The notes under the pieces were generated by a model. It was not told the origin of the DNA. It did not search any database and saw only the letters and a program-made list of their open reading frames with translations. Shown here piece by piece: positions 1-41,386 of a stretch of DNA of 41,386 nt. A program made the position numbers and the translations under genes. The DNA comes from Saccoglossus kowalevskii (lineage: Eukaryota > Hemichordata > Enteropneusta > Harrimaniidae), in the NCBI RefSeq assembly GCF_000003605.2, contig NW_003108579.1, positions 666,116 to 707,501 of the forward strand, given 5' to 3'. Each line of letters begins with the position of its first letter. Positions within the stretch are counted from its first letter, which is position 1.

Positions 1-1877
1 ACAAAAATAACTACTTAGCTTTCTGAAAGGTGAAAATCGTAGATTTTTCGGGAGCTCAGAACAACGACATGTGTATGCTAATTACATACATACATACATA
101 CATACACACAGCCAGCAATTTAGTCACAATGAAATAAAAACATTCCGATATTTGCTGAAATATCGGTCTACAGAACTAGATAAAAAAAGAAGTTGTCTTT
201 AATATCGATGTTAGAGCCATTACAGCAAATCAGACTGACACGCAATTATTTTTCATTGCTGTTTGTCGTGGGAGGGCGCAGTGTAAACGTCATTTGTGTC
301 TTTCCAAAGTTGTTCCTGAAGAGATTTGTCATACAGTATTAGTAATGTATCTTTCTATTCCCTATCAGTCAATCGTGTAATTCCTACCCGATCTACTGTT
401 GTTTGACACTATTGTATGACACTGCACTAGCATTGAAATAAGCTAAATGTTTTAGTACCTTACAAAAGAGAAGACTTCCTTTGAATGAATGCACTGACAC
501 CAGGTCAAGGTCATTCACATAAACTTGGAAGTAAATGTGCATTTCTGGTTGGCTAGTTCTGAAACATAAAGTCAAATATATATTTGTTAATCTATTGCAG
601 TTATGAATATTGCATATAGATAGTATATTTCAAGCGATCAAGTTCAATCGTGAAAAGTACAAAGACACATTTGTACAATGTCTTACATAACGCACTGAAC
701 CAATGCACATCAACGACTGGTAGAACTACACTTTTCGTAACTGCATCAAATAAATACAAAATGTTTTCGATTGGGTTAAATATTACTAATCGTATATAAG
801 TGTAGTGTATACATAACAATTATCAGTTTAAACAATATACTAATATTCAAAATAAATCATAATTAAAATGTTTAGACGTCAAAAGTCCGTTTGTGACATT
901 TGGGTGAATTCTAGTTTTATATCATGAAAACGTGCAATGACCCTCGAAGAATTACAAATAGAATGCTTCTTGCAACGCGATGCGCGTTTCCATGGTAAGC
1001 GATTGCCATGGGCGCAATAATTCATAGATTAAGGTATTTTTGATCACTGACTTTACCTATTGTTTTTCTTCGAACATAAATCTGTTGTCACTGTTCGCTG
1101 TAAATGTGTCTGCGGTTAGATGGAATGTAAGCTTCATCTACGGTTAAAGGAGAAAGTCAATTCACGATTTTAATATTATTGAACTGAACAAGAAATTCTA
1201 ACTCACTGCTAACCATAACTATCCATTATATATATATATATATATATATTCATCCATATTTAGACGAGTAATGCGTTTTAATATCACTTTGCATTTAATT
1301 AAAGTTTTGGTCACAGGTGGGTGTGACGTCGACAGTTAAATATGGTAATAACAAAATATATAATAGACTCACTTCACCGAGTGGTCATGTGAAAACTGGC
1401 AGATGACACAAAGCAGACAGGTTATTGACAAGGTAAGTGAATACAGTTTGTAATCTTCAGTTTTGAACAAGATACTACTACTGTACAATCTCGGAGACTT
1501 GTATTATGACGTCACTCGCCATATATTACAATCTACGTGAAAAAGGTCATATTTTGTTATTTAAATAAATATTTGAAAATATTTTTGTCTCGGTTATATT
1601 TGCTCTTATAACACATGTGATAAACGTTAACATAATTCAATACTTAAATATATATTATTTAATACTGCTTAATGTGATGAATAGTTTATGTTGCCTCAAA
1701 ACCCGTATAAGCTTACGAATGCATGTACATGTGTTTGACATTATTACGTCATATGTGTTCATATAAACACATTTATCATATTTCATTTATCATATTCCCC
1801 AAAAAAGCAAAAAGAACACGTGAAATAAATTGGAATAAGGCAGCAGTACTAATTATTTATATTATTTATGTCTGCAG
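1..1877. other. Noncoding flank upstream of peptide gene 1
   Basis: I see no convincing coding exon here on either strand; the short open frames are AT-rich and carry no recognisable domain. It holds an (ACAT)n microsatellite at about 84-110 and a (TA)n run at about 1226-1249. The promoter and first noncoding exon of peptide gene 1 should lie in the right part, because a 3' splice site (tctgcag) ends at 1877, just before the ATG exon. The exact start site could not be fixed. Confidence 0.5.
1507..1514. promoter_or_regulatory. Perfect palindromic CRE-like site
   Basis: The octamer TGACGTCA, the cAMP-response element consensus, lies about 395 bp upstream of the ATG of peptide gene 1. CREs are common in neuropeptide promoters, but this octamer also occurs at 3779-3786, where no gene is seen, so it could be chance. 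Confidence 0.25.
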
Positions 1878-1901: not shown

Positions 1902-2691
1902 ATGAAGACCTGTGGATTTATATTCATCATTATAACTGCTTTGATTCTGATATCAACTGTATCGACTGTGTCAGGACAGTTACCACCCGGATCAAACACT
2001 GCTTCTGGCGTAAGTGATATTGTGTTAGAAGCGAAACTAATTAGCATGTCAACTACTGGCATTTTGTTCATGATTTTTTGTTTGTTTCACTTATCTATGC
2101 CGATCATTAACTGTTGGTATGTCGACTCCCTAGTACGCTTGTACAATCAAGCATCCCGGTTAATGTTTGGTTTCAGCCGATTTCGACCCTTTCGATTTTA
2201 TGTGGCTGCATTAGTGTAGGAGGAGAATTGGGTATTTTTTTCGAGTATACGTTAATTGATTTTTAATCATTCATCAATCATTACTGCTGCAAATTTTGAG
2301 AAAAAAATTAAAATGTTTTTCGCTCGGTTAAATTCACAAATTTCCGAATTGGTACAAATTAATACGCATCGAGGCGAGTATTGTTGTCGCTGGTTATTTT
2401 CGCACAGTTTCATTTTTTTCAAAAAGGTCGCATAAATGTCCTCAAACAACAATAAGAATCATGCAAATTATATTCTTTTTTACCTACAAGACGAAGAAAA
2501 AAGTTGCAAATACTTTATTAAGTACCGATTACTGTCGAGTAGGTCCCAACTCTTGGAGTAAATTTAGCTCGATGTCTCATTCATTCTTTATTTATTCATT
2601 TTAGTGCACAGCTGGATGGTTCTATGGTTGTGGAAAAAGAGCAACAGAAAATAAACCTGCAACTACACACGAACAATTCGTTGACGAGTAG
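1902..2691 (+). CDS. Secreted cyclic amidated peptide precursor, paralog 1 (two coding exons)
   Basis: Coding exons are 1902-2009 (36 codons) and 2605-2691 (28 codons plus TAG), giving a 64-residue precursor. The donor gtaagt is at 2010 and the acceptor ttttag ends at 2604; the intron is phase 0. A further acceptor (tctgcag, ending 1877) shows that 5'UTR 1878-1901 follows an upstream noncoding exon. Residues 1-25 form a signal peptide with a long Ile/Leu-rich core, cleaved after Ser-Gly. Gln26 opens the linker QLPPGSNTASG. Exon 2 starts with the ring CTAGWFYGC, then GKR: the Gly is an amide donor and Lys-Arg a convertase site. The tail of 16 residues (ATENKP...FVDE) looks like an acidic spacer. 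The predicted product is a 20-residue pyroGlu peptide with one disulfide and C-terminal amide. It is the most diverged of the three paralogs. The family is not recognised; a secreted defence or attractant peptide is also possible. No expression evidence is available. Confidence 0.8.
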
Positions 2692-2781
2692 CTTCTTAAC
2701 AAGTCACTAAGTAAACCGACATGATTTGGTTAATATGATTAGCCGAATTTGATCTTTTACATATTGTTATCAATTGAGTAG

Positions 2782-2787
2782 AATAAA
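2782..2787 (+). terminator. Polyadenylation signal of peptide gene 1
   Basis: A canonical AATAAA lies about 90 bp after the stop codon of peptide gene 1, in AT-rich sequence that fits a 3'UTR end. Confidence 0.5.
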
Positions 2788-5700
2788 AATTACGATTATC
2801 CGTGAATTAAAATGTAAATATATTGTCGTTGTATTGATTGTCATTTACTGAATTGCCTACACAAATGTATCTAAGGTCTAACAATAATACAAATTGTAAC
2901 ACAATAATACAAATTTACATATTTGTATTGTATTTGAGATCGATTAACTCAACAGTTTGTATGAAATCGCAATGTGCGAATTCTGAAAATTGTTATGTCA
3001 TATAATCTGGACTACGCTATGGACGTTAGTTTTTGATTGATTCCCTGTTATTGATAGTTTTAAAATTGACAAAACATTTTCAAAAGTAATTATTAAACTC
3101 TGATTTGTATAATCAGTCGACTTTAGATGGAATCAATGGTGGACTGACATTACAACAGTACACATATAATTGTCACACATGCGTTACTGTTTTATGACGA
3201 GCACAGATAAGCATGCAGCAGTGAATGCTTCATTTCTACACTGACACAGAGAGTACATCTATGAATACAATGAACGATTGGTCAAAAGGTGAACCTTTGG
3301 ATCACATCACACTGTCACAATAACAAATTTATTTAGGTAATACAAAGTTGCAGTGCAAAATGTATTTTGTTTTCATGCCAGAACCAACGACATTTTCATC
3401 AACCTGGTATTCGTCTTCGTCGAATAATAATTGTAATGTCATGAATGGTATTGATAAATACAATTGGATGCTTATACAGAATTTTCATTGGTGCACTTGT
3501 GTGAATGTATTCTTGTCTCTTCCGCCTTTGTCAAAGAACGTGCCATGACATGTGACTATGTGTTCATATCATAACATTGAAAACGTATTCTTTACAGCGT
3601 GTGTGTTGGTGATAACTCTCAAGTATGGCAGTGTTTATGTTTTGAGGTGTATGAATAAACGACTAGCGTTATGGTGTAAGCAATGTTTGAAAGATGTGTT
3701 TCTCAATAAGTTGTTGACCACTGAATTATACATTTTCTAATTAATCAAAATAATAATTTCTCAAAATTCTGAAATGTGTGACGTCACGGTGTAATCGGCA
3801 TGTCGAAGTGCCTATTTACATTCGACTGTTATGTGACATCATAACTAGAACATATCTAAACAGTTGCTTAAAGTCGGAGTGAGCAAAATTAAAAGACGAC
3901 AAAATCGTAGGGTAACATTTATTTATTATTATAAATCGGGTCGTAGTGCAAATGTAAAACACAAAATACATGCATACCTATCAATACATCGCGTGAAAAT
4001 CTACATTTCTCAATTCCGTTAACCCTACACGACTTCAATTCTCGGGGAACTATTTGTTGACATTGGCCATTTGGAGAACGTAGAGCAAGCAACACACAAG
4101 CATTTCAAATAAATGCATAGTTGCTTTTCCCGTTAACCAGAGATGGCGTGCGTCGCTAACCAACATGACAGCGCACCAGAACCCGATATAAGTCCTTATT
4201 CGCCAACACAAGTATTGTAGCTCTCTGACTCTTGACAAGATATCGACAGCCATTTAAGACTGACGTCTATTGTGATTTGACTATCTATTTAAGCAAGTGT
4301 TTTTTGATGACCATGGCTCATACATTAGCGGTGGTTACTCATATTGTTGGTGTATAACTACTTTGTATGAAAATACAATAACAATTAGCTAGTATGTGTA
4401 TTTTATCCATCACACCACACTACATATACTGAGGAGGTCCTGTTTGCAATAGCATATGTTACATTTGAATTTGATAATCGTCTAATACATAATTTGTTTG
4501 CTTTCACACAAATGGCGTAATAGTGAAGTAAAACATCGACTGCACTCCATATTATATTTGCGATCATTTGAGATTCAGGACAAAGTGAGTGTTTGTCACG
4601 GAGTGGGGGAGGGGAGGGGAGGTCTTGTGTCGTCATCTCACTTTGGTGAGTGGCACGGAAACTGTAAACGCAATTAATGGAAGGGGATGCTGCATATTCC
4701 ACACACTTGACCGCGTTTCCTAGTATACGGTCTTTTCAGAACAAACCAGCACGTAAGTGCCAGAAAACGATTGACCTGTTGCTTTCATCACAAGAATGCC
4801 CAGACAACCTCCACACTTTTCTCGTTCTAAAAATAATACGCGGCCTTAAATCTGATGAGGCTTTCTGTGTCGGCACAGATGGCTCAAGCAATTATTTGGC
4901 AGTGAATAACCACGTCACGTTCGAGTCTCTATTAAATTTATTTTGGACTGTACATGTTTTAACAATGCTGCCTCAACAACTAACAAAATCACAGTAGCTA
5001 GCTATCAATATATAGTAGTCCGATAAGTACATAATTCAGTAACAATACAGGCAATATCATTCCGTAACTTCAGTGACAAGATTAACAGTATTCTTCAATA
5101 ATAATCATTCAAAGACTTCAAATCAAGGCACAATCAAGAAATTATGAATTTCACACCAGTAGAAGAGGTGTTTGTATAAGCTATGTATCAGTTAACACGA
5201 TATCAGCAGTGGGCATGGAATGCCTCGCGCTCTTGCTAGAACAATATTCCTTAAGAATAAAATCTTAATTCTCCCGCATAATTTCACTACACATTTCACA
5301 AGTGTGGGAAGAGATGACACATTTCACAAGTGTGGGAAGAGATGACACATTTCACAAGTGTGGGAAGAGATGACACATTTCACAAGTGTGGGAAGAGATG
5401 ACACATTTCACAAGTGTGGGAAGAGATGACACATTTCACAAGTGTGGGAAGAGATGACACATTTCACAAGTGTGGGAAGAGATGACACATTTCACAAGTG
5501 TGGGAAGAGATGACACATTTCACAAGTGTGGGAAGAGATGACACATTTCACAAGTGTGGGAAGAGATGACACATTTCACAAGTGTGGGAAGAGATGACAC
5601 ATTTCACAAGTGTGGGAAGAGATGACACATTTCACAAGTGTGGGAAGAGATGACACATTTCCCAAGTGTGGGAAGAGATGACACATTTCACAAGTGTGGG

Positions 5701-7869
5701 AAGAGATGACACATTTCCCAAGTGTGGGAAGAGATGACACATTTCACAAGTGTGGGAAGAGATGACACATTTCACAAGTGTGGGAAGAGATGACACATTT
5801 CACAAGTGTGGGAAGAGATGACACATTTCACAAGTGTGGGAAGAGATGACACATTTCACAAGTGTGGGAAGAGATGACACATTTCACAAGTGTGGGAAGA
5901 GATGACACATTTCACAAGTGTGGGAAGAGATGACACATTTCACAAGTGTGGGAAGAGATGACACATTTCCCACATAGGTATTTGCATATACATAAATTAA
6001 AATGTGGGCTTCGAATTTAGAAATAGAATAACGCTCTCAGGCTGTTGTTTTGCCCAATGTGGTTTAATTTGCAAAAACACCTAATGTTTGCAGTTTGCAC
6101 ACACATCGCCAGTAAACGGCTGATTGTAGTATTCACGACATTCATCATAATGTTCATTATGAGTCAGCGGTTGGGATAACGATTACTAGCTCTCATTCAG
6201 TCATTAAAATGACGACTTTAAAAATGAAGTATATGTTTTCTTTAATCATGCATGAATAAGCCTTACCACTATACAGGAGTGAAGCTACATATGTCAAAGA
6301 TTTATGTCCAAATTACGCCCATACGAATCGTCACAATGTGCCATGACAGTTTCTGTCCTGTCGTGCTTAGTATTATGGTGAAACTCGTATCCACAGCACT
6401 ATTCTCCCTGTTCTTTCAACTAGTTGAAACACTTAATTTATTTCCAAATCGTACAAATTTAACAAATTATTTGTTTTATTTCACTCACATAGAGTACAAT
6501 ATTTCACAGATTGTGTAAAAGTGTCATTTAAAGATATTTCTGACAAATAACGTGGAGGCAGCTGATCTCGGAACTTTGACAAGTTACCAGCTGCTTTTTC
6601 AATCTACTACTGACATATTTTAAATACTATAATATGTGCCTCTCCAGCGACAAAGAGTCGAGTCAACACGCTGTCGTTTGGAATCTGTATTGAATATTGC
6701 AGAGTGCGTGTTGTAATATGTCGTATGCCTTATGCTTTCATGTAGAAATCGCACAATGTACACGTATATTGAGAATTTTTTTGTATATTGAGAAATTTCT
6801 CTGATTAAATATGTTTAGGTGTTTTTTTACTCGAAAATATCATTTAGGGGAAATCACGAAATTATAATTAATTCAAAAATGCCCTCATGAATTGTACGGC
6901 AGTCAAGAAGCTGTCCAATTCAAACTAGAATGCAGCAATTTGTGTAAAAACACAGCCTTGTTTTTGAAAGCTGAATATATATTCTATAAACATAAATCAT
7001 CACCTGGACTGTAATGGGAGATTCAACAGTTGTTTATCTATTTAGTTTTAGAACAAATCCAATGTTAAAATATTTTTTTTAAATAATTAAAGAGGACAAA
7101 AAGTACACCACCATTAACAATATGAATATATTCACTTAATGTAGTATAATATATAATATCTTCACCATTTGAATACCATTCATTAAAATATAATCATCAC
7201 TGTCTCTCAAAATAGGCTGGTAAAACAACATTTTTGTCAAAGTCAATATCCGTAAATTGATATTACAAAGTTATTACTGATTATTACTCATATTACTGAT
7301 AGAAAGTGTCGCAATTATCAAATCAATTTGCTAACGGGATTAATGGCACAATTGTTAATTTCATTGTCCAGCCGTGTCTAACTGATAACAGAATGATGAT
7401 CCAATTTTAATGAAAATGTGAACCAGGTCAGATTTATAAAAACGATATTTTAAGTATAAACAAAATAATAATATAAATGCTGTCTAATCAACACGTGACT
7501 ATCGAGAGTTATTAAGTCATAAATATTATGGTTATCGGTTATCGCGGATCGATTTCGTATATTCAAACATACATAATATGAAATACAATTGTTTCGAGCT
7601 ACTGCTGTTTCATTTGTTTAAATTAATTTAAATTAAATGTTTCCATTTACGCAAACATTCACAGTGTGGATTAACGATTTTGTGATTGAGACACAACAAG
7701 ACGTGCTTGAGTTCCAATATCCGTCTGCTACTTTCGAACCGGCACGCATAAACTTGCCAGGTAGTTGTAGATATGCCATCCATGTTTTACATAGGCAAAG
7801 TCTACATCATGATGGAAAAAAAATGTATAATGTCTGGATAATTATTAAATTAATTATTAAAATAAAGAT
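2788..7869. other. Intergenic stretch between peptide genes 1 and 2
   Basis: About 5 kb without a supported gene. Apart from the minisatellite at 5289-5971 I see only AT-rich unique sequence. The longest open frame (4677-4997, 106 codons, +) has no signal peptide, no recognised domain and no splice context, so it is not called as a gene. Confidence 0.45.
5289..5971. repeat. 28-bp minisatellite, about 24 copies
   Basis: A unit of 28 bp (acacatttcacaagtgtggg followed by aagagatg) is repeated head to tail about 24 times with almost no divergence. Two internal units, near 5660 and 5717, carry the same ca-to-cc change (ttcccaag for ttcacaag), and the final partial unit also reads ttccca. Such homogeneity indicates recent expansion or ongoing conversion. 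The unit is not a multiple of three and is frequently stopped, so it is not coding. Confidence 0.95.
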
Positions 7870-8170
7870 GAGTAGCTGATGAAATTGTTGTCGCCTAGAC
7901 AACTATTAACTTCTCGCCCGAGCACGCATTGACATACATTGACTTAATCTACTAAAATTACACCGATACATTCATCACCTAGCAACAAGTGTTTACCTAA
8001 TATGTTTAACAAAGACCAGATTTTATGATCTAAAACACAATTTGATATTGTTTTTAAATTTATTAGTTTTAATATATTCCAGGTGCCACTGCGCCCACAG
8101 CTGGTATGTCGACTTACGTTTTAAAATTAATTTAAAAAAAAAATGTCGATACGTTTTGTATATATAACTC
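7870..8170 (+). promoter_or_regulatory. Upstream block of peptide gene 2, duplicated at gene 3
   Basis: This block aligns by eye with 15770-16060, upstream of gene 3. Shared stretches include attgttgt near the left end, the segment around ttttatgatctaaaacacaa (ttttatgagctaaggcacaa at gene 3), aaatttatta, and gcgcccacagctggtat (gcggtcacagctggtac). Both copies end in a TATA-rich run. Its conserved place before two paralogs suggests that promoter sequence was carried along in the gene duplication. The shared CAGCTG is an E-box core. Confidence 0.5.
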
Positions 8171-8221
8171 TTCGCCTTTTCTTTCGTGATTAATACGACA
8201 AGAACGAACTGCTTCAAAAAC
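8158..8221 (+). promoter_or_regulatory. Candidate TATA box and first noncoding exon of peptide gene 2
   Basis: A TATA-like tgtatatataac (8158-8167) lies at the end of the duplicated upstream block. About 50 bp later there is a donor-like gttagt at 8222, and a strong acceptor (atatttacag) ends at 8320. A short untranslated exon near 8190-8221 spliced to 8321 would fit. The start site is inferred only from spacing. Confidence 0.3.
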
Positions 8222-8342
8222 GTTAGTTATGCTCTTATTTGTGTATACTTGAAACAATTCCACTTCATTTGCAATATACAATGTATACTTGTTTCGACAT
8301 TTTTTTGTTTATATTTACAGCAATCTTTTACTCAGTCACAAA

Positions 8343-9072
8343 ATGAATACCGCAGGCGTGTTTATCTGTATTGCAACAACACTTGTGCTGCTGTCAGTAA
8401 CATCTACAGGAACAGGACAAATACCATACGGAGCCAATAAAGCAGCTGGGGTAAGTAAACGTGCAAACTAATTTCTTATATTAGGTATAATATACAATCG
8501 TCATATATTAAAGCAGAGTTGCTGTTTACAAATAGAAACAGTTCTCAACAGATAAAACTACGTTGTTATATACAATTTGTATATCATGATAAATGATTCA
8601 TTCCTTATCGGTAAACAGTCCAAAGAGCGCCGATCACGACGTTGTATTTTTTAAATAAATAAATAAGCAAAGTGGTACCAACAACACCGTTTTTGAACAT
8701 CCCATGACAAAAAAATGAAGTTTTGATATTCGATATGAGTGTTTAAATAATAATGTATTATATGTGTAATTTCAGTGTAGTCTAAGATTTCTAATGTATA
8801 CATATACTACTATGCTGCATATTTAGTTCGACTACAGTGATTGTGTTAATACATTAACCCGAATATCTGAATTGAGTAATAGTAAAGGGTAACGTTATTG
8901 CTGTTTTACATTAGCCATTGTGCAATAGTCGGAAATTCCATGGTAATAGTTATTGTATGATTTTCTTCAGTGCTACTCCGGCTTTGGAATTGGGTGTGGA
9001 AAAAGAGATTCTACTGGTGAACAGACGACGGACCAAATGTATACAGACGAGGAGCCTGGCATAGCCGAATGA
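8343..9072 (+). CDS. Secreted cyclic amidated peptide precursor, paralog 2 (two coding exons)
   Basis: Coding exons are 8343-8450 (36 codons) and 8971-9072 (33 codons plus TGA), giving 69 residues. The donor is gtaagt at 8451, the acceptor ttttcttcag ends at 8970, and the intron is phase 0. A 5'UTR of 22 nt (8321-8342) follows an acceptor ending at 8320. Residues 1-25 are a signal peptide ending Gly-Thr-Gly. The linker is QIPYGANKAAG and exon 2 opens with the ring CYSGFGIGC, then GKR. The 21-residue tail starts DSTGEQ, which is shared exactly with paralog 3, and ends in an acidic stretch finishing PGIAE. Predicted product: a 20-residue pyroGlu, disulfide-ringed, Cys-amide peptide. The start is chosen because the ATG precedes the signal peptide directly and lies at the same place in all three genes. 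No canonical AATAAA was found close downstream. The family is not recognised. Confidence 0.82.
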
Positions 9073-10801
9073 GAAGGCAGATCCTTGTATAGAATGATAT
9101 ACAATTTTGCAAACACTGACTAACTTGCAACCATGCACAACAATGTATCTCGAGATTATTTAATATCAGTAACTGATTATGTCAATTCAAATGTATGTTA
9201 ATGGTATATAAATACAATTATTCCAATACATAAAATAATTGTGTTGAATTGTAGGCAGTCATGTTTGTACAAACTTCTTTCTAACACAAAGCAAATAACA
9301 CTTGTTTTGACTCACCTACTGTCATCTTCATATGTGAAGATTACTGAACGGCTTTTGATAGATTGGTTGATCGATTGATTAATTAGTGGACACCTAAATT
9401 CTAAAATTGCCAACACACGCAATACACCATATTATCTATGTTGTACAACAACTAAATGTTCAATCTAATCATGTTATTCCTCATTGTTATTCACATGCAT
9501 TCTCGAACAAATAGCCAGTCACAAGCCCTGTATCAATCCACATGAGTTGAACGAAAACATTCAATATAGTATTAGGCATTGCAGTATTCAAAATTATAGT
9601 TTTAAAAAACAAATATTTTTGTTGGTGCGGGGAACACTGATTTTGCTTTCTATTGGTACCACTATTACGCAATTGATAAGATGAGTAGAAATATAGCGAC
9701 CCACAAAGTGACATATGTTATATTTAAGCAATATATGCGAGTGCATGTGCGAGTGCATATATGGAGTGAACTGTCCAATATCAAATGGTATGCCCGCATT
9801 CGGCGGGGGTTATTGCTATTATATTGTATTATATCGCCTCGTTTTGTGACAGGACACGTACATGATATGCCTTGTATCAAATTATGTCGAATCAGCGACT
9901 GTGCACACCGTTGCTCTAATAAAGTGCTCTTTCCGCCGGCATCGAATTTTGTCTTAAACAAATTCTTGGTCATCATTGGCATTCTTCCCGGCCACGTCTC
10001 CCAAAATGAAAAGTTAAATCAAACCCAACTTTTCTAATTAAACTGACTGGAATACTTGTCGATAGCAAATCGTCCATGTAGATTGCTATTTTGTGTTCAA
10101 CTTTATCAAGTCCCACTGTTTTAAGTTTTTTTAATTAAACCTTTGAAGGTGTTGTTGGCAGTGTTGAATTTGCGGTCTTGTGTAATATTCATGTTGCCAT
10201 TATATGGTGGTGAGTTGATGTGGCGATTGATCGCCGCTCGCACTGCTTTAATGATTTATTTCTATGTGTCTAAGATTGGTCACTGATAGGACTTAATAAT
10301 TGTTTCTAGTGGGTACCTGATTTTTATCATTCAACACCTTTCCATAACCTGTCACCATTTATACGAGGTCCTGGTCGGAACTTCAGTCAGCGAATGGAAC
10401 TAATTACGATATAAACGTCTTCAACGGACTGTACAATCTGACAGTTTGGTATGTGTAGTTTATAGCAGACGATTAATCAATAGATATGACGTGTTAAATA
10501 CTTCGTGTGATTGGCTAAATGCAAGTTGAATGTTTGGCGGCTACGCCTTTTTTAAACTCCCCTGTAATTGGCCAAGGTTTGAGAAGTAAATAAAGCTGGT
10601 CTTGGTCGGTCTTGGGGAGCTCACCACGAGGCACGCAGTCTTGAGGCAGGCAGTCTTGAGAGGCGAGGCGCCGAGCTTTGGCGGCTCTCCACAGGGCGAC
10701 TGAGACGAGAAGCTGACACGTATTCTAGATCTGTGTGTGTCTTTGTTCAGTAAAAAGATTGTGACCGTTACGATCCCTGGTTCCTGGCGTGAGGTTTACA
10801 G

Positions 10802-12289
10802 AAATTCCAGGCACTGATTTGACGCTGAAGTAGTGCTAGATATAGACAACATTCTACAATAGATTACACACTTTGTTTTCATATTTACAGAAGTTGCAAC
10901 TAGAAATATAAACATCGACTGCCAATCAGAGGAATGATTGACAGATATTGCCCATAATGTTTTCGATTTTTGCTACAAAGACCGATGCACCCAGACTTTG
11001 CGGCGCGTCTGTCTTTCATTCACTTTTGCACAGCACAAAATGCTTTATTCACCCAGACTATTCCCAGTGGGTGAATGTTGGTGTGTTTTAGGTTGTATGT
11101 CAAGATCATTCATCCACTTTAGTAGTAATACTATCAGTCATCGTGTTGATTGCGTGTCTACAAATCGGAAATTGTCCAAGTTGTTTAAACACCACAATGG
11201 AGAAGCAAGGAGTCGAAAAACCAGTTGAAGATTGGAAATCGAAGTGATGTTTCAACGCAGACAGCTTATAATATCGTCAAACGGTTTGTTACCATGGCTG
11301 TGAGTATCCTGCCAGGAAAGCGTAAGAGCGACCAATCCTAGACTAAGAAACTGACAACGTTATAGACTATGTCGGATATTATAAAACGTCGATACCGAGA
11401 ATTTACGAACAGTAAATTCGACAAAACTACCCGAAGACGGTGTATGTATGGCGGCAACCCTCCCGGACGTGTGATCGTGTGTTGCTCGTGATAAGCTGTT
11501 TGCAGATACGGTGAAGTTACCATGCTCTAAAAAGTAAAAACGTTTTTCAAGGGGAAAAGTGTTTTGAAGCATGGCTAAATATATAATTTTTTAAAGCCCA
11601 TGTTCCTGGCTTTTTGAAAAAAATGGTCTGCGATATGTACCACGATTGATTACTAAGTAAACATATAGGTGTTATTTTGAATAAAAATGAGTTTTGTGTA
11701 AAAACAGCAGGGGTTCTGTAAAAAAAGAAAGCTGAAAAAACACTGCAGCCTCAGCATTATTTGGTGTCAACCATTTGATTCTCATAGTCGAGAACTAATA
11801 ATCGAATAACACGTCATCCATTCTCCTTGTGTATTTAATTTCATTATTGATATACTGGACGAAGTCTTCATAGGACATTTGTTGCAGGCAGCTTTCAGTT
11901 TAATATATCACAGTTTAGTGGCTATATAGATCGGCGTGATACGGATATTTCCATAGTAAGAATAATGCACTTTGATCATCATTTTTGCCATGATCAGCCG
12001 GTCAGCTGGTTCTGTAAAATAACTCTAACTAACGTTCTGTACAGTGCCACCACTTTATGCGCTCACTGAAATAACATGTGACTCAAATTGAAGTAGGAAA
12101 CTAAGTTGAGAGCCTCGATTGTTTATTGGAGGAGAAATTCAAAACTAATGTACCGCTACTTTTATTGCAGACATGCCGTCTGAATTATTTGTAACAACTT
12201 CTGTAAATGTGAAAACAAAGTGTGTAACCTATTGTAGTAAGTTATCAACATGTAGCACTACTTTGGCGTCAAATCAGTGCCTGGAATTG
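10802..12289. repeat. Inverted-repeat element with arms of about 98 bp
   Basis: The left arm 10802-10899 matches the reverse complement of 12192-12289: both read aattccaggcactgatttga, then a diverged middle, then ttacacactttgttttca and atttacagaagttg. Identity by eye is about 80-85%. The arms bracket about 1.3 kb with no recognised transposase. A non-autonomous DNA element, or two opposed copies of a shorter repeat, would explain it. The GC-rich stretch at 10600-10700, just outside the left arm, may belong to the same insertion. Confidence 0.55.
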
Positions 12290-15200
12290 CTGTAATAACA
12301 CGATAATTAACCGCATCATACTGCACTGAGACTCGACCTCCCGTACTTCTCTCCTGCCTGACTCCGCATCCCAGCATAACACTGTTGTAAAACATTGTTG
12401 AGATCTTCAACACTCAGATACTCGAATTCAGGGTTCTACGCAGTTGATCCTAGAAAGTCTGTTTAAAAAAATGGGAAACAGCATTTCAGTAAAATTAAAA
12501 ACCGTATTGTAAACAGTATCGTCTTACCGGCGAAATGAAAACAAAACAAGACATTCACCTTTCATAATTCTTTTATAATTCTTATTCTTATTTTCTGTAT
12601 TTTGTTTTTCGTTCTTCAATCCCTTAATCTCATCTAGTCGGTCATCATTTAAACTTACAAACCGTGTTTTCTTTGTTGAAGGTTCGAAATCTATTTCAAG
12701 TCACAACAGGGAGGACATGTTTTACAAGTAAACGCAGCGTTATGGCGTTCGTTTTGGTTTGTGTGGCGAATGACGATCACCCAACGATCGACACTCAGAA
12801 CTTGGAACCCGCCATTAACAAAAAGCAATATTATGGTATATTTTTAAGATGTTTTAATTCGGTAATTTTTCCATTTTTTTTCCAAAATGCAATCACTATT
12901 TTTTTATAAAAATCAAATATTACCGGTTTTATGTATTACCGCATTAAACATGTAGTCAATTCATGTTCCAGGGTCACTTTGTTTAGCGTGACTGAGCAGT
13001 ATTAGCCAATATACCATTAGGTGCGTATGCACATTTTGTGTTTGAACCAATCAAATCGATGGATTAACACCACAAATATACTGGTATAATATAATTATTT
13101 TTATTTTATGAACGTCCCTTAAAATGAGTTAATTGTACGTGTGTAAAAGCTGAATAGAAAATGGCCTTTAGTATCACTCACAGCTTATTTCACCGTATTT
13201 ATATATAATTACTTCTACTCTATGGAAATGCAATTGTGAACCACTTTCTTACATCACCAAAATGATGTTATTCCGGACTTACAATATTCTAAATATAGTG
13301 ACACGTTGTTACTTTGTTACATACACCCATACCTTGTCTTGAACAACATGCACATCGTCAAAAGTGAGCAGACGGGATTCTATACTATCAGAGCATACAT
13401 ACTGTTGATTTTTTTTGTCAAAGTAGACAATACAGGTGTTTTGATCTGAGGGCGAGCTGATCCGACGATCGAGACAGATCTTTTTTGTTTGGCATTATCT
13501 GAATAAAATCACTAAGTTGAACATTATCGATAAAACCATGCAAGTATATACAATGTGGACATATTAAAATCTCCTACTTTGTATGAGATAATAAAAAATT
13601 ATGTTATCAAACCAAGCATGAAAAGAATGATGCCTCCGTCTTGGTGATAGTATTGTAATAATTAATGAATACATTGACAATCTATACGAATTTAAACAAT
13701 GATACAGTGTACATTGATGATGATCTACTTATAATGTATCATATCAATCAACCGTCTTAATTTTGTCTATCATGTGCACTGGCCAGTTAGCATTACTTGT
13801 TCGGAAATTAAAATAAATCAATGTTATTGAGAGCTACAGGCCCTCGGTGGCAGCAACGTAGCAATAGTGAACCATTCCATATTTTATCTTATTTAATTCT
13901 TTTCTTATATATTGTATGAACGCACTTCCATTACCATGACATGTTTGTACAAACGAATCGGATCAGTGATGTAACGTGTTTTTTGAATGATATTGCAGTA
14001 CTATCTACATAAAACAATGATGAGCTCACACAAAAAAAAATAATAAATAAATCATAAACTGTAATGTCCATGGAACAATGTTGAACTATCTGATCACTGC
14101 TGAAATCCACGTAACATATACTTAATAAATAATGCATGCTAAACAGACACTAATATAGGTCAGATCAATGTTATTTTCAAAATTCTTAATGCCATTATCG
14201 AAACATAATTGCTAGATTGATGTGGCTGATAAATGACAGTATTCATCGCCGGAAATGGGTGGACAAGATGGCCGACTTTCGCTCGTGGGCAGTGTTCTCT
14301 TGTCAATAAACATCACAGAATGTGCCATAGAGATATATTGAAAAAAATATTGAGTTTATATTTTAAATTATTTCACTTTTGTGTGCTTTGTATAGACAGG
14401 TGACGCTCCAAGCTTTCGATATGTTGTTATAGATATTTCATTAAAACGCTACCATTAAATGCCCAACTTGCCGGGAAACTTGGTGTTAAATCTTCCACTG
14501 GCTCAGTGTGATACCAATGGACAATGTGCGATTTTTCAAGTTTGTTCCCTTCGTTCTTGATAATTTCTGATACAATGAACACAGTGATGCAGCTCAAATA
14601 TGTCCGTTATTCCATGTGAAACCACCCCTCTTCTCGAACGTGAACCACTAACGCTATACTGCTATTGGTGCTAAAGGTGCACAAAATCAACATATTGTAT
14701 GACCGTTTTTCCTCTTTATAAAGAAGGGTTTTCATCACGACGTCTGTCCGTGAGTTGTGTATTGTTCCACGACAGTCTCGACTTTTGTCTTGTAACGCGT
14801 CAGACGTAATTTGCATACCAATCGCCGTTGACGACAACAATGATATTCACAAGATTTGTCTGTCCACAGAGTTTTGTATTACATATATAACAGGTGGCTG
14901 TCTTCAATGCCAATATAAGAGTGTACCTAATGGAATCTCGTCCTCTGTCAACCAAAACCATTTATTACATGGCTTCATATAATCAACTAACAAATTAAAC
15001 AAACGAAAGATTATCTCACTTACCATTGTTTTCAACATCATCCATTGTTTTGAATAATTTTGCATACAATTATAGTCACTGCAATGGGATAGACTGGAAA
15101 TCCCTACTTGACCTGATTTTATTGTCCATTTCTGGCAATGATACATCTGTAATCGTAACGTCATAAGTTACAGCGTGGCGTAATTTTGCGGTATTTTGTG

Positions 15201-15390
15201 GGGTATTTTCATCCTCCCATATACGGAAATGCGAATTCAAAATATGGAATGATTACACGCGAGTCCTCTAATAATAAAAACAAACATGGCTGCGATCAGG
15301 GTTTGACCGGGCTAGACACAAAGAAGTTCGCCGATACTGTTCTAAACTTTTTGGATTTCGGCATTGCTATGATGTATCCTTAGAAGGAAA

Positions 15391-15534
15391 ATACTAAGGT
15401 TATTACGAGGATACCTCAAAGTATGCATTCAGACAGTGCGCCATCGTCTCGACCGATGCTGCGCGTCGGACGATACTGCCGCTGTACAGTCTGTGTGCAT
15501 ACTTTGAGGTATCATCGTAATAACCTCATAGTAT
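15391..15534. mobile_element. Hairpin (MITE/foldback-like) element, 144 bp
   Basis: The segment folds on itself nearly end to end. The left arm atactaaggttattacgagg, continuing through atacctcaaagtatgca, is matched by the reverse complement of the right arm (tgcatactttgaggtat, then cgtaataacctcatagtat). The centre also pairs (atcgtctcgac with gtcggacgat). Such short foldback elements are typical non-autonomous DNA transposons. No open frame is present. The target-site duplication is unclear. Confidence 0.75.
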
Positions 15535-15769
15535 AAACTAACTGTCATTCTAACTATTATATAAAAGTGTAGAAATAACAACACACCAACTCTGTAGACA
15601 AACGTATAACCAACAGTGGGAATTCAGAATCTAAACAAACTATTGCCAAACATCCATAATAAAGAAAAGGCACGTAAACTACAATACATGGTCAAATCAG
15701 TCGTAGTAATATATATGCCATCTTTGACACCACTAGCACGTTGTTTAAACCTTTATTAAATTAATCGTG

Positions 15770-16060
15770 ATTATATGAAAGTGGCTCATGAGATTGTTGT
15801 TCCTAAGGTAACCATTTACTGTTTACTCAAGCATGTGGGATAATTCGTGAAGGCAACAATGTAATCGTATCACTATTATTTAATTATTTCCTCGATGTGA
15901 ATATCAATAACAAGGTCCACGTTTTATGAGCTAAGGCACAATTTCATATCGTCCTAGTATTAAATTTATTATACTTGAGGCGTTTCTGCGGTCACAGCTG
16001 GTACATTTTCTCATATGTAATTTTAATTTAACGAGACGTTCAGTGTATATATATATCTAA
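15770..16060 (+). promoter_or_regulatory. Upstream block of peptide gene 3, paralogous to 7870-8170
   Basis: It aligns with the block before gene 2 over about 250-300 bp with small gaps: gattgttgttcctaaggtaa, ttttatgagctaaggcacaa, aaatttatta, cacagctggta and a terminal TATA-rich run. In gene 3 the block is about 1.3 kb from the ATG rather than about 0.2 kb, so the first intron is longer here. Confidence 0.5.
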
Positions 16061-16132
16061 CCGATTTTGTTTTTTTTTTGAGTTGTACAGCAATCACGGC
16101 AGTTTTCTAAAACGATCATTTGAGTTATTCAG
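16045..16132 (+). promoter_or_regulatory. Candidate TATA box and first noncoding exon of peptide gene 3
   Basis: A TATA run (16045-16056) in the paralogous position is followed by a donor-like cag|gtaggt at 16132/16133. An acceptor (tttacag) ends at 17337, 22 nt before the ATG. A short untranslated exon ending at 16132 and spliced over about 1.2 kb would mirror gene 2. Inferred from sequence only. Confidence 0.3.
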
Positions 16133-17359
16133 GTAGGTAGCATTTTCTGTTCTGTAAGATGTCGGTTAAGGTGGACAAACAATTTATTTGTTTTTTGTTT
16201 ATATGATATAGCAAATCAACTGATAATGGCGATGTTGATAACGATTATAATAATATTAATCGTAATGATGAATTATGATAATGGTATATTGGTTTAGTAA
16301 TACAATGATAAAAGACAAACAATCACGCGATTGCCCTAACTGAAACGACATTGCGAATATGCCATAGTTATGTATGGACGAAGTGAACGTAACATACACA
16401 ATCCGTTGGTTTTAGCAGGGGTGTAGTAGACATCCATTTAACATTCGACTAGATGGTCACTCTGCGAAGTCAACTTTAATGAGGTAGCGCCACAGTGGAG
16501 TTTTATTAAAATTAAATTAAGCTTTTCATTGCTCTCGGTACATCTTTGATAAACCTCCTTTGAAGTTATCTTAAACACCATGGATTGCAAACGGGCGCTT
16601 CCGGGTGCCGTCAACATAGTTCATTGAGGCAACAATAACTGAACTTAACCTGTGCTTCGGGGTGCACGAATTGGTGCCCAGCCAGACAGGCACTGGCGTA
16701 CTGGTTTTGATCATTGAGAATCCTTCAAACTCAAGGAATATATAGCTATACCAAGTAATGTAACTGTTGTCGAATGTTTTTGAAAACATATGCAGTTACT
16801 ACAGTGAAAGGGATAGTATTACCCAAGATCCACAGCATTCATTGAACAGTGGGGTGGAGTATATACCCTTTTTGCTGCCAAATCTCACTTAGTGTTGTTG
16901 CAAAATTGCAGCAAACAACTTGTGACACAGTTGGTCATTTTTCGCAAATATATCATATAATGCAATTAGGTACAATCAATTAATTGATACTGGTTGTATT
17001 TTAGTCTAGGTGATTGTGCGTAACCTTCGCGAGGTCGAGGAAATTATAATCATTATTGCAGCTGTGGACTTTTCCACTTATTGTATTTTTAATACTACAT
17101 TTTCTAAGTGTAATTTACATGTTACCAGGCACACGTCACCTGACATTTAACATAACTAAAATTTGACTGCACTTCCATAAACTCGGAAGTTTGAATGTAA
17201 TATGTGTGCCCGATTCTCGCCAGGCGTTACCGTCACCGCTCTGAGGACTAACTAAATCGTAGCTCATGCAAATGAACAAATCAAATTGATACAACCTTGT
17301 ATATATTTGTACCAACTTTCACTGTTTACGTTTACAGGAATTGTAGACTTAATTTCGAA

Positions 17360-18211
17360 ATGAAGACTACATGCGTGTTTATCTTTATTGCAACAGCACT
17401 GTTGCTGCTCTCAGCAGCATCTACGGTAACAGGACAAATACCATACGGAGCCAATACAGCAGCTGGGGTAAGTAAACGTTTTGAAAGTATTTAACAGAAG
17501 ATATTTACAATACTTTTGAATCATATCAGGTGCGTGAAAATGGCCTGCAGTCAAGTATTTTTGTAATTAAAATCATAAAAGCAAAATTAATTAAGTACAA
17601 AGTTGCAATGAGATCGGCCAAGATATGAAACAGTTAATGATATATTGTTTTTTTAAAAAAATAGACATAAACAATCGACATCGTGACGAATGCTGAACAA
17701 ACGGGCAGACAAAAAGAACCCAATGCATAGGTTCCTGAATCATTGCTGACTGAAAAAAAAAAAAAAAATAAACTTTTACATGTTTTATATTATCACAAGG
17801 GATGTGAACTTCATGTATTCCCTTGTATTAATTATTTATTTTCCCAGGTACCATCTCTGCAATATGTATATATGTTCAAGTTCCCCCTCAAAATCATCCG
17901 TCTCTCTATAATACACCCTGGCAACACATCTCAAGCAGGGAACGTCAACACCATGATATTATAAAAAGAATATATAATCGAAAATAAGAACAAGTGCACA
18001 TACGTTTTGACACGCGTGCAGATACAGCTTTTATCGAACGTAATGATTTTTGGTGTTATATGTATGACGATAATATTTATTGTAACTTTATTTATTGTAA
18101 CTTTATTTACAGTGCTTCTCTGGTTCTAAATTTGGATGCGGAAAACGAGATTCTACTGGTGAACAGTCAGAGCATGTGGATACAGATAAGAAGCGTGGTA
18201 TAATGGAATAA
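17360..18211 (+). CDS. Secreted cyclic amidated peptide precursor, paralog 3 (two coding exons)
   Basis: Coding exons are 17360-17467 (36 codons) and 18113-18211 (32 codons plus TAA), giving 68 residues. The donor gtaagt is at 17468, the acceptor ttatttacag ends at 18112, and the intron is phase 0. A 22-nt 5'UTR follows the acceptor ending at 17337. Residues 1-25 are a signal peptide with a Leu/Ala core. The linker is QIPYGANTAAG, differing from paralog 2 at one residue. Exon 2 starts with the ring CFSGSKFGC, then GKR, then DSTGEQ. Unlike its sisters the tail carries Lys-Lys-Arg before GIME, a second possible dibasic cleavage site. Even the first intron bases (gtaagtaaacgt) match paralog 2, so these two are the youngest pair. 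Predicted product: a 20-residue pyroGlu, Cys-x7-Cys ringed, amidated peptide. The receptor and family are unknown. Confidence 0.82.
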
Positions 18212-18290
18212 GAAGTCTTGTATAACATTTGTTTACAACAGACTCTTTACGACTATATTTCAAATACGGCAATGTACTTTAAGAGTATAT

Positions 18291-18296
18291 AATAAA
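18291..18296 (+). terminator. Polyadenylation signal of peptide gene 3
   Basis: A canonical AATAAA lies about 80 bp after the stop codon of peptide gene 3. Confidence 0.5.
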
Positions 18297-21367: not shown

Positions 21368-40856
<19,489 letters not shown>

Positions 40857-41386
40857 CTGCAAGACAATAACAATGCAGATATTTATATATAGCGCCAAAA
40901 TCTATGACGACGTCACGTTCAATGCCGCTGTACATTATCACCTTAGTTAGCTAGCCAGTCAAACTTATTTGCCAGCTCAACTCCCCGGGATCACCCAACC
41001 CGACCTGACGTTCAGTTGTGAGACATTACAAAATAAACGATGCCAGCGATAGATTACGAGTATGAAAGAACAAAATAAACGCAATCAAAGGCGCCGACCA
41101 CGCGCGTTGGAAATAAATAGAATAGAATAAATCTCACCAGCATCTTTCACTCACGCAAATGCACACACGCATGCTATTTCTGTATATTGAATACGTTGGC
41201 AACGGAAGGGACAAGTTTAAATCATCTTTGTATTAACACAACTTGAAAGCAACAGTCTCACACTGAATATATGTTTATAAATTATCAAACTAAACATTCA
41301 ATGAAGCGGACTGCGACGGTTAAGACGAAAAGACAAGGCTAAGACGAAAAACATGTGACAGTACGATTATGCTCGTCTACTACATG
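40857..41386. other. Upstream of the receptor; possible signal-peptide exon
   Basis: No exon can be placed with confidence. One candidate on the minus strand is an ATG at 41143-41141 starting MLVRFILFYLFPTRVVGA, which looks like a signal peptide, in a 29-codon frame. No good phase-0 donor was found inside it. The true first exon may lie beyond the window. Confidence 0.2.

Follow-up and report, generated by a model that had tools for sequence, protein, structure and literature searches.

Three tandem paralogous genes of the hemichordate Saccoglossus kowalevskii are likely, judging from their sequence, to encode precursors of 20-residue pyroglutamyl, ringed and amidated extracellular signalling peptides. 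The genes, called here g1, g2 and g3, lie on the + strand of a 41,386-nucleotide stretch of contig NW_003108579.1, positions 666,116-707,501 (this whole stretch is referred to as the window), comprise two coding exons each, with coding sequences spanning 1902-2691, 8343-9072 and 17360-18211, and translate into precursors of 64, 69 and 68 residues, respectively. All three follow the same plan: a signal peptide, Gln, a C-x-[SA]-G-x3-G-C ring, Gly-Lys-Arg and a tail. An earlier note on this DNA had described three + strand genes with a common precursor plan, which was reproduced by translation, with the N-terminal Gln, the Cys-x7-Cys ring and Gly-Lys-Arg present in every copy, and the exons proved to be homologous. 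Its reading of the genes as precursors of amidated peptides agrees with the paralogous genes, the signal peptide, the amidation and dibasic motif and the ring frame; production, cyclisation, amidation and signalling are the part that we infer.

The first coding exon is 108 bp long in all three genes (1902..2009, 8343..8450 and 17360..17467, + strand) and encodes the signal peptide (residues 1-25 in g1), followed by the linear part QLPPGSNTASG in g1, QIPYGANKAAG in g2 and QIPYGANTAAG in g3. The second (2605..2691, 8971..9072 and 18113..18211, + strand) encodes the ring (CTAGWFYGC, CYSGFGIGC and CFSGSKFGC, respectively), GKR and a tail, acidic in g2, and ends in TAG, TGA and TAA. These models are based on translation, supplemented in g1 by the GTAAGT donor and homology to exon 1 of g2 and g3 and by a TTTTAG acceptor of exon 2, and in g2 and g3 by homology. 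The coding introns (595, 520 and 645 bp) are in phase 0, with GTAAGT donors, TAG or CAG acceptors and the reading frame kept across, and the splice points that had been proposed at 2009/2605, 8450/8971 and 17467/18113 thus hold at the sequence level. In each gene the intron is located exactly between Gly36 and Cys37, i.e. directly before the ring, which amounts to a division of labour between an exon for the signal peptide and linear arm and an exon for the ring, processing site and tail. Candidate polyadenylation signals (AATAAA) are found on the + strand at 2782..2787 for g1 and 18291..18296 for g3, and none of this form is among those listed for 9073-9700, downstream of g2.

Between residues 25 and 48, fourteen positions are identical in all three precursors (G25, Q26, P28, G30, N32, A34, G36, C37, G40, G44, C45, G46, K47 and R48). 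The ring frame is therefore constant, and its three-residue interior differs: WFY in g1, FGI in g2 and SKF in g3. A signal peptide and an amidation Gly followed by a dibasic site (GKR), both of which are general marks of neuropeptide and peptide-hormone precursors, are present in 3/3 precursors. The predicted signal peptides, which the earlier note had assumed, score 7.6, 8.4 and 11.0 with a hydrophobic core in each, and the best predicted cut precedes Gln26 in g1 and g3 and lies one residue further on in g2; the scores come from a matrix of the von Heijne type, not from SignalP.

The paralogy of the genes is evident from homology within the window, which links exon 1 of g2 and g3 (8306-8462 with 17323-17479, 83%, E 8e-42), exon 2 of the same pair (8947-9076 with 18089-18215, 73%, E 4e-14) and exon 1 of g1 and g3 (1893-2015 with 17351-17473, 68%, E 7e-5). 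Alignments of the coding introns score no higher than those of shuffled copies (3 shuffles each). By the NG86 method, dN/dS is 0.24 for g1 against g3 (dS 2.0) and 0.34 for g1 against g2 (dS 1.6), well below 1, and 0.60 overall for g2 against g3, where constraint is weak; these values are rough, with about 45-50 synonymous sites and dS near saturation in the comparisons with g1. Within the mature peptide the ring is the most changed part. Its pN exceeds that of the signal peptide in 3/3 comparisons (0.24 vs 0.17, 0.40 vs 0.30 and 0.45 vs 0.40, on about 21 ring sites), and nonsynonymous differences between g2 and g3 number 5 over 21 ring sites and 1 over 25 linker sites. In such peptides the ring is usually the receptor-binding core, and its variability, which counts against the signalling reading, would fit diversified targets, a weak constraint on the loop, or a role in defence.

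The 83% likeness of exon 1 between g2 and g3 extends over 157 bp and ends about 12 bp inside the intron, and synonymous change in this pair amounts to 4/30 sites in exon 1 against approximately 9/20 in exon 2 (Fisher p 0.02, from rounded counts). Because synonymous change is low there, the likeness ends in the intron and the introns are unalignable, exon 1 looks homogenised, most simply by local gene conversion; alternatively, the likeness could stem from selection acting on the DNA itself.

Each gene is preceded by a predicted promoter and leader exon on the + strand. For g1, the probable core promoter and leader exon occupy 1312..1432, with an E-box (CACAGGTGG) at 1312, TATATA at 1357 and a donor GTAAGT at 1433, and the putative leader acceptor CAG is at 1875-1877, 24 nt before the ATG. 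The probable counterparts are 7999..8221 in g2 (E-box CACAGCTGG at 8096, TATATA at 8159, a weak donor GTTAGT at 8222, acceptor CAG at 8318-8320) and 15900..16132 in g3 (E-box CACAGCTGG at 15993, TATATA at 16046, donor GTAGGT at 16133, acceptor CAG at 17335-17337). The layout is the same in 3/3 genes: CACAG[C/G]TGG is followed after 45-63 bp by TATATA and after another 63-87 bp by a donor, and a CAG acceptor precedes the ATG by 22-24 nt. An upstream block is common to g2 (7999-8106) and g3 (15900-16003; 70%, E 1.5e-6), and another, detected under relaxed scoring only, pairs 7842..7924 of g2 with 15753-15833 of g3 (+ strand, 67%, E 1e-5); upstream of g1, no likeness to these blocks was found beyond the short E-box, TATA and donor motifs. 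The E-box occurs four times on the + strand of the window, the fourth copy being within exon 2 of g1, and not on the - strand. The ordered E-box/TATA/donor arrangement is found in the window only at the three genes, with none on the - strand, and at 2 sites in 1785 simulated single-strand windows, the search pattern having been drawn up after looking at the sequence. Since the arrangement is confined to the three genes, each of them probably starts with a leader exon that is not translated and receives a common bHLH-type input. This layout, the position of the intron before the ring and the apparent homogenisation of exon 1 are new relative to the earlier description.

The cluster appears to hold all the copies that our searches could reach. 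In the genome (572 Mb, 4830 contigs), searched with the g1 and g3 proteins as queries, g3 gave at least five matches and g1 at least four, all of them exons of this cluster, and no further copy was found in the 101 kb scanned (the window and six further stretches, including about 16 kb of N). A loose Cys-ring-dibasic pattern had two matches on the - strand in the same scan, one at 12394 of the window and one in the right flank, neither with any other likeness to the genes. The window also contains a minisatellite at 5289-5969 (24.3 copies of a 28-bp unit, 99% matches), whose FHKCGKR frame was considered as a relative of exon 2 and dismissed as chance, as an equal score against g1, g2 and g3 is reached by 92, 44 and 422 of 500 shuffles, respectively. 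Other repeats are an inverted pair at 10796-10896 and 12195-12295 (101 bp, 89% identical) and adjoining tetranucleotide arrays of TTAT, CGTT, TTTA/GTTT, CGTC and ATTT at 35446-35910.

The - strand at 21848-40901 carries the exons of a large receptor, which is probably a single adhesion GPCR of the lectin/PAN kind. PAN (40557-40901 and 37239-37517), C-type lectin (39457-39882 and 30453-30761) and GPS (26267-26443) domains are above the Pfam cut-offs, F5/8 C-like (34691-34954 and 32617-32874) and 7tm_2-like (25253-25501) regions are below them, and additional transmembrane segments were recognised by eye. About 25 kb upstream of g1 lies an open frame for a rhodopsin-type peptide GPCR (L008:4596-5789, + strand), which has neuropeptide FF receptor 1 as the nearest solved structure (E 5e-39) and is a linked receptor candidate. 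Elsewhere in the genome, a homeodomain search gave 31 matches, 12 of which were converted to loci and 8 of these read. By eye, we take contig C132 (337 kb) to carry two posterior-type genes followed by Hox8-, Hox5- and Hox3-like genes in order, C1423 to carry Hox2- and Hox1-like genes, and C2346 to carry one Hox11/13-like gene and a second, unread match. Hox3 beside Hox5 would fit an ambulacrarian, a weak sign when taken alone. The distribution of the homeobox genes over these three contigs speaks against the feather star Anneissia japonica, whose ten Hox genes lie on a single 1.86 Mb scaffold (PMC7351957).

Processing by pyroglutamyl formation, disulphide bonding and amidation is established chemistry, and its application to these precursors would proceed as follows. 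Each paralogue would yield one secreted 20-residue peptide: the signal peptide would be removed before Gln26, which would cyclise to pyroglutamate, a Cys37-Cys45 disulphide would form a C-terminal ring of nine residues, cleavage after Lys-Arg by a prohormone convertase would remove the tail, which would be discarded, and the exposed Gly would be converted to an amide on the final Cys. The predicted products are pQLPPGSNTASGCTAGWFYGC-NH2 (g1), pQIPYGANKAAGCYSGFGIGC-NH2 (g2) and pQIPYGANTAAGCFSGSKFGC-NH2 (g3), with net charges of 0, +1 and +1 and no acidic residue. Their calculated monoisotopic masses, with pyroglutamate, amide and disulphide in place, are 1995.824, 1955.866 and 1957.845, and each would rise by 2.016 on reduction. 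Most likely they would be extracellular signals, presumably of neural origin and probably acting via rhodopsin-type GPCRs, in the manner that their resemblance to other single-ring amidated neuropeptides suggests, and since the ring frame is fixed and its three-residue interior varies, potency or receptor preference probably differs among the copies. Juveniles of S. kowalevskii are reported to express PC2, glutaminyl cyclase and PAM (PMC10508912), which counts for this model because the precursor plan needs these enzymes.

The same features can be read in other ways. Chance open frames, which the shortness of each exon might suggest, have a practically negligible probability, given three paralogous exon pairs in which frame and splice sites are conserved around unalignable introns. 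Moreover, the strict motif C-x2-G-x3-G-C-G plus two basic residues is found at three sites on the + strand and none on the -, against 0 in 1346 simulated windows (order-2 Markov, both strands), and a looser motif (acceptor, C-x7-C-G, two basic residues), again 3 on + and 0 on -, against 2 sites in the same windows; both motifs were defined after the genes had been seen. Secretion, Gln and Gly-Lys-Arg would be equally compatible with non-neural secreted peptides, and a family of defence, mucus or gamete peptides, processed in the same way and aimed at microbes, eggs or sperm, is an unlikely reading that nevertheless deserves some weight. It would account for the tandem array, for the diversified ring of g2 and g3 next to a conserved linker, and for the elevated pN of the ring. 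Yet the low net charge and lack of acidic residues are unlike cationic antimicrobial peptides, and, unlike the pattern of toxins and defence peptides, dN/dS is lower in the mature part than in the signal peptide in 3/3 comparisons (0.41 vs 0.89, 0.16 vs 0.27 and 0.24 vs 0.52, rough at high dS). A possible likeness to echinoid sperm-activating peptides such as resact, which the earlier note had called faint, would lie in the small Gly-rich ring and in the amidation of some of them; they differ in ring spacing, in their multi-copy precursors and in their guanylyl-cyclase receptors.

Membership of a known family was the other matter to be weighed. The nine-residue crustacean cardioactive peptide (CCAP) has a Cys-x5-Cys ring and a Gly-Cys-amide, and the earlier note had remarked on the resemblance, which stands for the single ring, the Gly-Cys-amide end and the small secreted precursor; membership fails, as all three peptides have a Cys-x7-Cys ring, placed after an 11-residue pyroglutamyl arm, and no residues beyond Gly-Cys were noted in common. 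Vasopressin/oxytocin peptides likewise share a disulphide ring, amidation and Gly-Lys-Arg, but their ring is Cys-x4-Cys and N-terminal and their precursors include a neurophysin domain, neither of which is present in g1-g3 (neurophysin was sought with Pfam), and the genome has its own gene of this type on another contig. Two neurophysin loci were found, and 2.6 kb ahead of the first lies an exon for CFISDCARG-Gly-Lys-Arg. CFISDCARG-amide is the published S. kowalevskii vasopressin-type peptide, the other deuterostome entries shown being different (PMC7181382), and the peptide of the crinoid Antedon mediterranea is CFWRTCPVG (PMC9793003). The second neurophysin exon lies near the end of contig C3808, and no NG-peptide motif was found in the 1.3 kb up to that end; the exon may belong to an NG-peptide gene that is truncated there. 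The NG peptide/NPS type, comprising deuterostome relatives of CCAP, is characterized by Asn-Gly motif peptides and a neurophysin domain, and a S. kowalevskii precursor of this type is already published (PMC4422128); g1-g3 contain no Asn-Gly and fall outside it. That the three are divergent peptides of the CCAP/NPS or vasopressin type whose ring has grown larger is thus very improbable.

The note's statement that no family is recognised agrees with the searches: no precursor scored above the curated Pfam cut-off, the matches of g1 to DUF4834 (E 0.26) and of g2 (residues 3-23) to Ac45-VOA1_TM (E 0.0086, judged to be signal-peptide noise) being below it; the best PDB match of g3 has E 2.5; and a large protein collection, which we take to be poor in such animals, gave 3 candidates with g3, none with E <= 10, and 51 with the three-row alignment, again none. 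In collections of viral and prokaryote contigs the pattern picked out 80 and 125 stretches, respectively, of which not one was confirmed. As the collections are viral, prokaryotic or thin for such animals, these negatives say little. The statement is qualified by two crinoid precursors described in the same terms, AmedPCNP3a and 3b, which are structurally related, C-terminally amidated and have two cysteines each, as does PCNP19 (PMC9793003). That g1-g3 are homologues of PCNP3a/3b, and so belong to a family of ambulacrarians whose predicted peptides have been published before, is rather improbable, although it would be compatible with the signalling-peptide reading; the likeness is by description only, the description suits many peptides, and the authors report PCNPs as bearing no relation to other phyla. 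Six fragments of the peptides or of their GKR junctions did not occur in the searchable literature text. A published survey reportedly covers S. kowalevskii peptides, and an earlier listing of these in print is possible.

Taken together, the genes form a real and coherent peptide family, familiar in kind and probably undescribed. Tentatively, and as a possibility that we would not put at even odds, it could be an undescribed hormone family restricted to hemichordates or ambulacrarians, whose pyroglutamyl arm and nine-residue ring frame, both fixed, are carried on separate exons, whose three-residue loop varies freely, and whose copies are kept in step by an E-box promoter common to all and by conversion of exon 1; if PCNP3a/3b were homologous, it would date back to the ambulacrarian ancestor. 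Phyla that have only recently come under study often yield orphan precursors of this type. For the question of how chordate nervous systems arose, hemichordates are a key group to compare, and most of what is known of their peptides comes from homology to other phyla, a route by which a precursor family without homologues would escape detection. The three copies provide well-defined synthetic peptides of exact mass, and with them a natural structure-activity series for an orphan receptor hunt.
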